This document shows, piece after piece, positions 20,934 through 25,310 of a stretch of 64,000 nt of DNA. How positions within the stretch are numbered: the stretch's first letter is position 1; every line of letters starts with the position of its first letter. The DNA is taken from assembly GCF_000565215.1 (NCBI RefSeq), contig NZ_CP006934.1:558001-622000 (forward strand), in the 5' to 3' direction. The stretch comes from Spiroplasma sabaudiense Ar-1343 (lineage in GTDB: Bacteria; Bacillota_I; Bacilli_A; Mycoplasmatales; Mycoplasmataceae). The notes under the pieces are model-generated. The model had not been told where the DNA came from. It worked only from the letters and a program-made list of their open reading frames with translations, and searched no databases. The position numbers and the translations under genes were made by a program.

Positions 20934-21875
20934 TTATAAAATACTTTTGCTTGAATTAGTATTTACATATTTATTATCTTTATATGGCAAAAAACTAAAC
21001 GAATACAAGAAATCAATTAAAAGCAAAATCTTTAAAACATCATTATAGCAATGTTGACGAATTAGTTTTATATCCTTATTTAGTTCTTTATATTCGTTCA
21101 AACTGCATGTTTTATAACTGTAAAATTTTAAAGCACTACAAGAAAGTTCATAAACGTCTTTTTCTTCGTCAAAATTATATTCATTAATTTCCTTCATATA
21201 ATCAAAGAATTTTTTCAATCCTGGAAGCGCAATTGTATCTTCCCCAAATTGCCCTGGTTTTAAATAGTTTTTAACATAAAATTCCCTACCATCTTTATCA
21301 TAATTTGAAAAAGAAATTGATTGTTCTAAGGGGGGGTATATATCAAAAGAATTTAACTCTGGTAGTTGGTTTTTACTATTAAATTTAAATAAATCAATTT
21401 TTTTATTTTTAAATAACGTGTGGTACTTTGCTGCTCAATCACGAATAATTTTGTTATCATTGGTTCCCCCAGCAACAATCATCGTGCGAATTCTCTTTTT
21501 TATACAATTTGATAAAAAGCTTTTTACCATTTTTTCATACTGCAACTCAAAATCATATTTACTGTCATTATAGCCACGCTTTAAAGAGACAGATTTAATT
21601 GATTTTGTATTATCCCTTGTTGTAATTTCCTTTAGGTTACTAATAAACGAATACTGAAAAACGGTGACTACGTCCTTTCTTTCATCGTTATACAACTGAT
21701 TAAAATCATTATTACTGCGATCGTGAGAATGATTAAAAAACTCTGTATCGATTACAATTGCTGGAAATTTAATTTGAGATAAATACCCTTTTAACTTACT
21801 TTTATCAACATTAAAGAATTGATGCTCATTTAAGTAGAATTTACCATCAATTTGTGAAATTGAATGTTTTTTCAT
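20934..21875 (-). CDS. Exonuclease-like (DEDD/DUF2779-type) protein
   Basis: The 313-residue product is not one I can name. Its pattern resembles RNase-H-fold exonucleases: a beta strand with an acidic pair (PAIVIDTEFFNHSHD), a core strand (VVTVFQYSFISNLKEI), a central loop (RTMIVAGGTNDNKIIRDW) that could supply another acid, and a C-terminal HCYNDVLKILLLIDFLY. That last motif resembles the closing Cys/His-x2-3-D helix of DUF2779-type domains. There is no signal or membrane segment. ATG 21875 has AGAGAG upstream. It lies upstream of yqeG and divergent from the coiled-coil gene at 21969. The nuclease idea is inference from motif spacing only. Confidence 0.55.
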
Positions 21876-21968: not shown

Positions 21969-22838
21969 GTGGGAAATGAAGAAAAACAAATTAATTTAAA
22001 AACTTTTTTAGATAAAGTCGGTTTAGTTTGATTTAGAAAAAATTTGGCAAGAAAAATTGAAGTTTTTAGACTTGATTTTTTAGAAGCATCAAATGAAAAA
22101 AGTGATAATCCATTTACCCCTCCAACAGTACTACCAATTACAACGCAATCAATTGATAATGTTACTGGTGAGTTCAAGGACTTGTTGGCTGAAATGGATT
22201 CAATTGATGAAGTCCAAGATTTTGCAAATAAGAGTAATAATATTTTTGAGTTAACTAATATGTTTGCAAATCAGGGATCAAATAAATATGCGGAAAACCT
22301 GATGCAAGAATTGATGGATAATCAAATTGAAATTGAATCGCTGGTTGTAAAAGTTCAGATTGAAACAATTTTTAAAATACTTTTAAAAAGCTTAGAAATG
22401 ACTAATGAAATAGCTAAAAAAATTGGTGAAGAAACTTCAATTAGATTAGTGGATATTGATGATTTAAAATACTTAATTAATTTGAGCATCAAGAAATCAC
22501 TAGATAGTTTTGATGTTTGAATAAGTAAGAATTATCAAGAATTAGAGCACTTTAAAGAAGAGCTAAAATCATTAAAAGAAAATGAATTTGATTATGAAAA
22601 AAATCTTCAAAATGCCGAGATTATCGTGCTTTACTTTAAACAATTTAAAATTAAAGAAGTAACTCAAGATTTTGAAAAAAGCGCTTCAGAAAATGAGCTA
22701 AAAATTAACCAAAGCTCTGCTGACAAATTTATTAACTTTACTGAAGGAGCTCAACTTGCAAGCGATATAAAAAATAAATTGGATTTAGCTATTGAAATTC
22801 TTAAAGAATATAATAAATTAAAAAACATAAAAAAATAA
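21969..22838 (+). CDS. Coiled-coil protein of unknown function, 289 residues
   Basis: GTG 21969 follows GAGGAATAAGC and opens the longest frame; no ATG fits. The protein is hydrophilic and helical, with long Glu- and Lys-rich coils from about residue 170 (YQELEHFKEELKSLKENEFD). A Pro-rich linker (NPFTPPTVLPITTQS) lies near residue 43. No membrane span or signal is present. UGA-Trp occurs at codon 21 and near 22518. It is alone on the plus strand and ends in a hairpin at 22837. It starts divergently from the exonuclease-like gene, 93 bases away. I do not recognise it. Confidence 0.75.
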
Positions 22839-22880: not shown

Positions 22881-23738
22881 CTAAACGCTGGTTATTGAAT
22901 AATTGGCTTTGATGTTATTGGCTTTTGTAATTAACTTTACGGTAAAGCCCTTTTCGTTTTCTAAATTCTCATCATCCTTGAAAACAAATTTTTCAATTTC
23001 TATCGAATTGTCAATCCCTAATTTTTCAGCAGCCAACTCATAATTTTTTATAATTTCTTCAATATCTGATTTGCTTGTTATAATTTCAAACTCGTTAATT
23101 TTTTCTTTATTTTTTATTTTTAAAGAATTGTCAATTGAGTTAACCAAAATAGAATTTATAAAATCAAAAACTTTTCCAGAACTAGCCAAATAGTAATTAT
23201 CAGTTGTCATGAAATCCAATAAAATTTTACCGGTTTTTTTTCAGCCATTTGAAATAGTTAAGGCCATAACAGTTTTTACTTGAACTTGAGGCTCTAATTT
23301 CTCATCTTCAAAATTAAAAAATAAATCTTCTACAAAACTATTTTCTAATGTTAAAGTTATTCCAGTAAAGTCATAGATATAAGCGGCTTCATTGACTGGT
23401 TTTACATTGCTTGCTTTTGCCAAATCTGAAATAAATTGTTGATTTTTATTATTTAGAGCCTTAAAATCTGATTCGCTAATTCGCCCATCTTGAATTAAAA
23501 AAACCCCAATGTTTGTTTCAAAATTTGAGTGATAAAAATATTTATTCTTAATGGTTAAATATTCAAAAATAATTGGCTCTAATTTTTCAGAAGACCTTTT
23601 GTACAATAAATCGATTACATCTGAATCAGCCTCAGATGAGACAGAAACCAATTCATCAACGGCTTCGCAAGAAACACTTAAAGCAGAACTTGTTAATAAA
23701 GTCACCGAAAACCAAATACTATATAACATCTTTTTCAT
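22881..23738 (-). CDS. Prolipoprotein, function unknown, 285 residues
   Basis: ATG 23738 follows GAGGTTTAAA, a good ribosome site. The leader MKKMLYSIWFSVTLLTSSA ends in LSVSC, a usable lipobox, so the product is probably an outer-surface lipoprotein. The mature protein has mixed alpha/beta character (YIYDFTGITLTLENSFVEDL, then DNYYLASSGKVFDFINSILV). A UGA-Trp lies at 23241 and the stop is UAG 22881. Its start overlaps the end region of the upstream lipoprotein gene, whose stop is at 23740, so the two are coupled. I recognise no family. Confidence 0.8.
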
Positions 23739-23739
23739 T

Positions 23740-24720
23740 TTAAACCTCGTTTTCAATAATCATGTTTTCAAAATAAATTTTATCGATTAAGCTTTCTTCA
23801 ACTTGAATCATTGAATTTATTTCTATAACATTTTCTTCGCTTAAAGAATAAACTATTTCATTTTTATAATTAAAAAACATTGTCAAAAAATCGTTTATGT
23901 CTTTACATAATTTATTAAAGTTTTCTTCAACATTACTTGTATTACCATTAACAATTATTTTTAGCGAGTTTGAAACATCGTCAAATTCAAAAACTGAATT
24001 AAAATTTTCCAATTCAATTTGTTTATCATTAACTTGCTGATTGATTAGAAAATCTATGGCTCTTTTAAAAAACTTTTTATCTATTGGTTCATTTTCAATA
24101 ATTTCAAATCAATAGTTATCAAAATGATTTTGATCTTTTTTTAATTCCAAGTAGTTATGCGATGTCAAAAAAAAGCTTTTGTTTTCTTGATCTTTCAATG
24201 AAATCGAAAAATTTTGCACGTTTGTTTGGTTTAAGATTTCAGAATTTGAAAAATCATACCTAACAAGAAAATCGCTATTTCCCAAATAATCTTGATTTGG
24301 AATAACTTGAAATTGTTTGGCAATTTCATCAATTGCATTTTGAACCATTTTTTTTAGTGCAGGTGAATTTTCTCCACCAGCTTCACGATAAATTTCATTA
24401 GTTACCTTAATTCCTAAATATTTTGAATCATCAAAAATTAATGCTTCGTTATTATATGAAAAACTTTTTCAATCACGACTAAGACTTACTTGATCAAATA
24501 ATTCTGTAGCTTCAAAATTTCTTGAATTTGAAAAATTATCTAATTTTTTTTCATAAATTTTTCATGACTGAAAACCAGGAAATATTAAACTAAATGCATT
24601 TTTAAAATTTTTTATATTGTCTTGATTTTCTTCAACCGGATCAAAACTACAAGCAACAGCTTGTAATGAGAGACCAACTATCAAATTTGTTGCTAAAAAT
24701 AAACTAAGTATTTTTTTCAT
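23740..24720 (-). CDS. Prolipoprotein, function unknown, 326 residues
   Basis: ATG 24720 follows TTAGGAGTCAAGAA. The leader MKKILSLFLATNLIVGLSLQ ends in AVACSF, a typical Mollicutes lipobox. The mature part is rich in Asn, Phe and Glu, with IYEKKLDNFSNSRNFEATEL near residue 55. UGA-Trp codons include that at 24109. Its 3' end abuts the next lipoprotein gene, and its start lies 16 bases from the end of the tail frame described at 24737-24903. The pair looks like a surface-protein operon. No family recognised. Confidence 0.8.
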
Positions 24721-24736
24721 TTCTTGACTCCTAATA

Positions 24737-24903
24737 TTAAAAAAATCGATTCACTGATATGGAACTTGATATATAACTTGCATAAAGCTCAAAATTACTT
24801 CTCGGAAAGTTTATGTAACCATCATTAAAATTTATTGTTATAAATAACAAGCTCATTAGTAAAAAATTAGATTGAGGATTCAATCATTCTTCAAAATTTT
24901 TTT
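24737..24903 (-). other. Protein-like tail in the +1 frame after an A8 run
   Basis: In the frame reached by one added A, this stretch reads ILEKNFEEWLNPQSNFLL, then FITINFNDGYINFPRSNFEL, with one UGA-Trp, to a UAA at 24737. That stop is 16 bases before the next ATG and one base before the TTAGGAG ribosome site, the spacing of a real operon junction. It is either the lost 3' end of the gene above or an expressed tail reached by slippage. Confidence 0.5.
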
Positions 24904-25209
24904 CTAAAATTTTTTTTCATTTAAAGTACTTGCAATAAAATCGCGAAACAACAAAATCCCCTTTTTTAAATGATTTTCCTTTATCCAAATGTAAATATCT
25001 TCTTTTAAAAATTCATTAATATTTTGGTCGATTATAGTCGAATCAAATACTTTTGAAATATTTGACAACGCTTCATAGTAGCTTCGAAAAATAATTTTCT
25101 CTTCAATTATTGAATCATTTGAGTTTTTATGTTTAATTAAAACAAAAAAAGAATTTTCAGGAAAGTTAATTTTAGATAAATTCTTTGACACTAAATTAAT
25201 TTTATCCAT
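24904..25209 (-). CDS. Hypothetical protein, 101 residues, probably cut short by a frameshift
   Basis: ATG 25209 has the strong ribosome site GAGGTAAAT; the earlier in-frame GTG at 25236 is less likely. The protein reads MDKINLVSKNLSKINFPENS, then FFVLIKHKNS, IIFRSYYEALSNISKVFD and IWIKENHLKKGILLFRDFIA, ending TLNEKKF at a UAG. The stop comes right after a run of eight A. Adding one A would carry the frame on into a further 55 or so codons ending at 24737. The first gene of the lipoprotein cluster; no signal peptide and no family recognised. Confidence 0.6.
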   Translation of the reverse strand: MDKINLVSKNLSKINFPENSFFVLIKHKNSNDSIIEEKIIFRSYYEALSNISKVFDSTIIDQNINEFLKEDIYIWIKENHLKKGILLFRDFIASTLNEKKF

Positions 25210-25310
25210 ATTTACCTCAACATTATTATTATACACAATTAATTTGATAATGAAATTTACAAAATTAATTTTAATTGAGTTAAAATAAATAGAAGAAAGA
25301 AGGTATCAAA

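Follow-up and report, generated by a model that had tools for sequence, protein, structure and literature searches.

Gene X of Spiroplasma sabaudiense, which is followed by two lipoprotein genes (LP1 and LP2), is, judged by comparison with its relatives, one gene broken by a -1 frameshift. It is probably an inactivated gene, in a lineage that is losing the whole X-LP1-LP2 module, most likely by ordinary gene loss. The sequence examined, here called the window, is a stretch of 64,000 nucleotides, corresponding to positions 558001-622000 of a single contig of 1,075,953 bases; the species, a mosquito isolate, is represented by one genome. UGA is read as Trp throughout this genome.

Layout of the broken gene

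The features of the region are listed below, by window coordinates.

25215-25220, minus strand: TTGAGG, ribosome site of X, read directly (25220-25215 in gene direction)
24904-25209, minus strand: X head, 101 aa, from ATG (25209) to UAG (24906-24904); profile of X from other genomes, 38 bits, E 6e-11 per 1000 sequences
24910-24917, minus strand: run of eight A (A8), phase GA/A AAA AAA/TTT TAG, most likely site of the -1 frameshift by switch-point scan
24897-24903, minus strand: second A run (A7), directly after the UAG
24737-24907, minus strand: X tail, -1 frame, 56 aa, TAA at 24739-24737; profile 24.7 bits alone, codon usage
24728-24734, minus strand: TTAGGAG, ribosome site of LP1, read directly
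23740-24720, minus strand: LP1, lipoprotein gene, 326 aa, ATG at 24720, open throughout, from sequence reading
22881-23738, minus strand: LP2, lipoprotein gene, 285 aa, open throughout, similar to genes of genomes G006, G030 and G035
21969-22838, plus strand: convergent gene after LP2, used as order marker; in congeners it edges the site where X-LP1-LP2 is missing
20934-21875, minus strand: exonuclease-like gene (by eye), kept in G001, G002, G006, G008, G030, G035 and G043

A sequence-only reading had described a gene starting at 25209 with a ribosome site, a UAG after eight A and a tail with a UGA-Trp running to 24737, beside the TTAGGAG site, and all of these elements were confirmed. The frame of X runs GAA AAA AAA TTT TAG, and the run, read directly, is exactly eight A long. 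In the -1 frame, the tail reads LEKNFEEWLNPQ...SVNRFF, contains one UGA read as Trp and is the best among six frames by codon usage; its end (24737) lies 16 nt upstream of the LP1 ATG. A run of seven T (24739-24745) is found at the extreme end of the tail, adjoining its TAA, and the tail terminates at the position of an NFWE motif conserved in the relatives. Re-initiation of the tail was rejected, as its in-frame starts are without a visible ribosome site.

Homology of head and tail

Sixty genomes of the family (Spiroplasmataceae) were searched by using, as query, the head and the tail of X joined by one unknown residue. The joined query matches 22 of them, over about residues 5 to 154, UGA being the only stop codon in the frames; in all 22 relatives the homolog is a single gene of 165-192 aa, interrupted by neither TAA nor TAG. 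The genes of these 22 relatives were aligned into a profile, from which the window's own X was left out. The head scores 38.3 bits, the joined sequence 66.7 bits and the tail alone 24.7 bits (E 8.6e-7 per 1000 sequences), the last value being slightly favoured by the fact that the relatives had been gathered with the joined query. The joined sequence covers positions 7-157 of the 171 of the profile, and is aligned without gaps at the junction. Conserved gene order, described below, gives independent support to the orthology. By profile and codon usage, the tail is genuine protein sequence.

The position of the break was evaluated by scoring joined frames with different switch points: 59 bits were obtained at codons 81-84, and 64-69 bits at codons 85-100. 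Since A8 is by far the longest run within codons 85-100, the frameshift is best placed there. The view of X as one gene broken at A8, already put forward in the sequence-only reading, thus holds: head, tail and joined sequence all match the profile, both frames, searched against the relatives, are homologous to X in 22 genomes, and none of the homologs ends at the UAG. Compared with the X family, which consists of proteins of about 170 aa in Spiroplasmataceae, the window gene shows the full-length match and the gene order, and lacks the single open frame; it is disrupted relative to intact orthologs, with homology on both sides of the break, as a pseudogene by frameshift would be.

A distant X paralog (about 175 aa; L060-L064, L057) occurs at another locus in the 20 genomes of group g9, in several of them near a DJ-1-like gene, and G007 seems to carry only this paralog. 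The profile search found no second copy of X in the window genome.

X, its paralog and the lipoproteins were compared with Pfam, NCBIfam and PHROGs, and no family was assigned at the curated cut-offs. Among solved structures compared by sequence, the best match (E 0.0098) is part of a ribonucleotide reductase and was taken as chance. In the AlphaFold model of an X family protein (L022, pLDDT 82), the helical central part is flanked by two strands on each side. This model found no Foldseek match at E <= 0.001, and the best fold match, VIA (Z 4.3 over 77 residues), was too weak for use. According to this model, X would lose three helices and the last two of its four strands through the UAG. It is very improbable that the 101-residue head is a working short protein, the tail being a relic: the head is conserved like that of G006 (27% vs 25%) and the tail is not, but the missing part holds these predicted elements, and no short form is encoded in any relative.

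Gene order and loss of the block in congeners

The order X, lipoprotein, lipoprotein, convergent gene, exonuclease-like gene is the same in the window, G006, G030 and G035, and lipoprotein genes follow X in six of the seven relatives whose neighbours were read. LP1 is recognisable by sequence only in G006, where it is 27.8% identical, along 169 aa, to the gene after X (E 2.7e-6). LP2 can be recognised in all three genomes, being 31.9-36.1% identical to the second gene after X (E 1e-22 to 1e-24). As read from sequence and order, X-LP1-LP2 is a conserved gene cluster, headed by X, in Spiroplasma; the placing of X at the head of a two-lipoprotein operon, suggested earlier, was right as a gene order, and this order is conserved in the relatives.

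Both congeneric genomes, G001 and G002, which are the nearest among those searched, lack the whole X-LP1-LP2 block. The isochorismatase gene, which in the window sits upstream of X, is there separated from the convergent gene by about 70 nt in G001 (L101:4000-4160) and about 15 nt in G002 (L102:4320-4360). Neither X, by profile search, nor LP2 was found elsewhere in these two genomes. As two other species have lost the three genes together, the module appears dispensable within the genus.

Sequence constraint on head and tail

Similarity to the homologs of group g9 was calculated separately for the two parts of X, G006, a similarly distant genome, being used as the single comparator. For the head, the values are 0.267 for the window and 0.247 for G006; for the tail, 0.173 and 0.301, the difference having a 95% interval of -0.24 to -0.02. 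The exonuclease-like and convergent genes of the window genome are closer to g9 than those of G006. The tail-minus-head value of the window gene is the lowest among nine distant homologs, and the tail-versus-head contrast within X alone is -0.065 (95% interval -0.167 to 0.043), which is non-significant. In the alignment, read by eye, four of the 15 positions invariant among the relatives (Y6, G14, W83 and W159) are altered in the window.

From these comparisons the tail looks somewhat decayed, and they do not show the frameshift to be "recent", as the sequence-only reading had it. The same data lean towards a constraint relaxed after the break, rather than a full-length product maintained by slippage.

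The altered residues also bear on the possibility of an error in the deposited run length, X being in truth intact. Errors often take the form of a single base too many or too few in a homopolymer, and runs longer than eight are nearly missing from the assembly. The loss of four of 15 invariant residues is, however, unexplained by a sequence error, and the run counts reported below also make a sequencing or assembly error quite improbable.

A/T runs and mismatch repair

Runs of A or T were counted in a sample of 264 kb, made of the window and ten further stretches of the genome (L066-L075). As far as 8 nt, runs are about as frequent as expected (159 of 8 nt counted, 191 expected); only 4 runs of 9 nt occur where 85 are expected, and 2 still longer runs where the expectation is 65. 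The drop above 8 nt holds both inside and outside ORFs. It is also seen, less marked and in small samples, in six other Spiroplasmataceae genomes (L076-L085), so that the shortage of runs of at least nine is not an artefact of one assembly alone. Within ORFs of at least 90 aa, runs of eight or longer number 130 in the sample when A and T are both counted, which is a further point against a wrong run length, and 104 when only A on the sense strand is counted.

A domain search found MutL and MutS-I to be absent from the window genome, controls being detected in 11 of 14 genomes. Given the run counts and the missing domains, there is nothing unusual in an A8 run within a gene, and longer runs are expected to contract to eight; the scarcity of 9-nt runs fits such contraction. 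A scan for further genes split at A/T runs of at least 7 gave 24 candidates, many of them resembling ordinary gene overlaps, and was discarded as unspecific.

At the point aligned with A8, the longest A/T run measures 3-6 in 21 of the 22 relatives, and eight, in frame, in the remaining one (L015). Neither a repeat tract shared with the relatives, expected of a phase-variable gene, nor a slippery site conserved with the gene, expected of a programmed frameshift, was found at this point, L015 alone having such a run. In seven loci of relatives (L008, L009, L010, L013, L017, L021 and L034), the X protein opens with Met, an acidic residue and Lys-Lys, and codons 2-4, the usual position of poly-A switches, hold a run of 7-9 A; the gene is in frame in all cases.

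A phase-variable switch was among the options named in the sequence-only reading. In such a switch the length of the A run would vary by slipped-strand mispairing, cells in the on and off states would be mixed, and the sequenced clone would be off. Mycoplasma hominis offers Mollicute precedents in its vaa and vmp-2/vmp-3 genes (PMC524362), and the lack of detected MutS and MutL domains would favour run-length changes. Yet X shows no visible signal peptide on inspection by eye and is not a lipoprotein, and A8 lies at 63% of the gene, away from its 5' end. The near absence of a run of eight among the relatives, the commonness of A8 runs in this genome, the loss of the module in congeners and the signs of drift in the tail all point in the same direction, and make such a switch unlikely.

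Some full-length X might be made by slippage, either of RNA polymerase, adding an A, or of the ribosome, moving -1 on A AAA AAA. In E. coli and Buchnera, the longer an A/T run, the more insertions arise during its transcription, the increase being exponential (PMC5574713), and insertions go in the needed direction; the phase GA/A AAA AAA suits slipping of the ribosome by -1; Blochmannia and Buchnera are reported to keep frameshifted genes by means of slippage (PMC3017870); and the tail is still open. Such rescue is nevertheless improbable. The RNA fold downstream of A8 is not unusually stable (z-scores of -0.01 and 0.16, by a model without pseudoknots), the run is not conserved among the relatives and the tail seems to drift; moreover, A8 runs are common in genes, so that unaided slippage is expected to yield little.

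Discussion

The evidence is best accounted for by gene loss. A one-base contraction of the A run would have occurred at replication, in a genome where no MutS/MutL repair was found, shifting the last third of X out of frame; ribosomes would halt at the UAG past A8, leaving a 101-residue fragment without the C-terminal helices and beta strands. We infer that this contraction was the causal mutation; the fragment would be inactive and the frameshifted state presumably fixed. X would thus be on its way out, as part of a module dispensable in the genus. Counting against this explanation, the tail is free of stops and has recognisable homology, X has kept its start codon and its ribosome site, and LP1 and LP2 are still open. 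Because of the open, homologous tail and the intact start and ribosome site, the break may be of young age, or rescued in part.

Among known cases, those closest to X are the poly(A) frameshifts of insect symbionts (PMC3017870) and the vaa/vmp locus (PMC524362). The frameshifted genes of Blochmannia vafer (PMC3017870), an AT-rich insect symbiont, resemble X in having a one-base indel in an A run with the remainder open, and the host is in both cases a low-GC insect-associated bacterium. Those genes, however, are conserved and show no accelerated evolution, with possible rescue by slippage, whereas X is lineage-specific, is lost in congeners and has a tail that seems to drift.

In M. hominis, vaa is expressed when its run holds 8 A and silent when it holds 7 or 9, and it switches at 1e-3 to 1e-4; vmp-2 and vmp-3, which belong to this locus too, are told apart by a single A in a run close to the 3' end (PMC524362). 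As in X, whether a Mollicute makes the short or the long product depends on 8 or 9 A in a run, and in vmp this run is situated close to the 3' end. The vaa and vmp products are surface proteins with length variants among isolates or subclones, whereas in X no signal peptide is visible and no length variants were seen in the one genome of the species. An A8/A9 tract also sets the frame in swrA of Bacillus subtilis and in other poly(A)-tract switches (PMC2831843); these tracts are near the 5' end and their reversion has been measured, while the tract of X lies well into the gene.

It is doubtful that A8 acts as a live on/off or slippage control of X; if it did, this species would use the X-LP1-LP2 module both with and without X. 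According to the explanation preferred here, the frameshift of X would be an ordinary step of genome reduction, in genomes where A/T runs are sharply capped at 8. It also marks a conserved, unnamed module, X-LP1-LP2, which one large Spiroplasma clade has retained and the congeners have lost.
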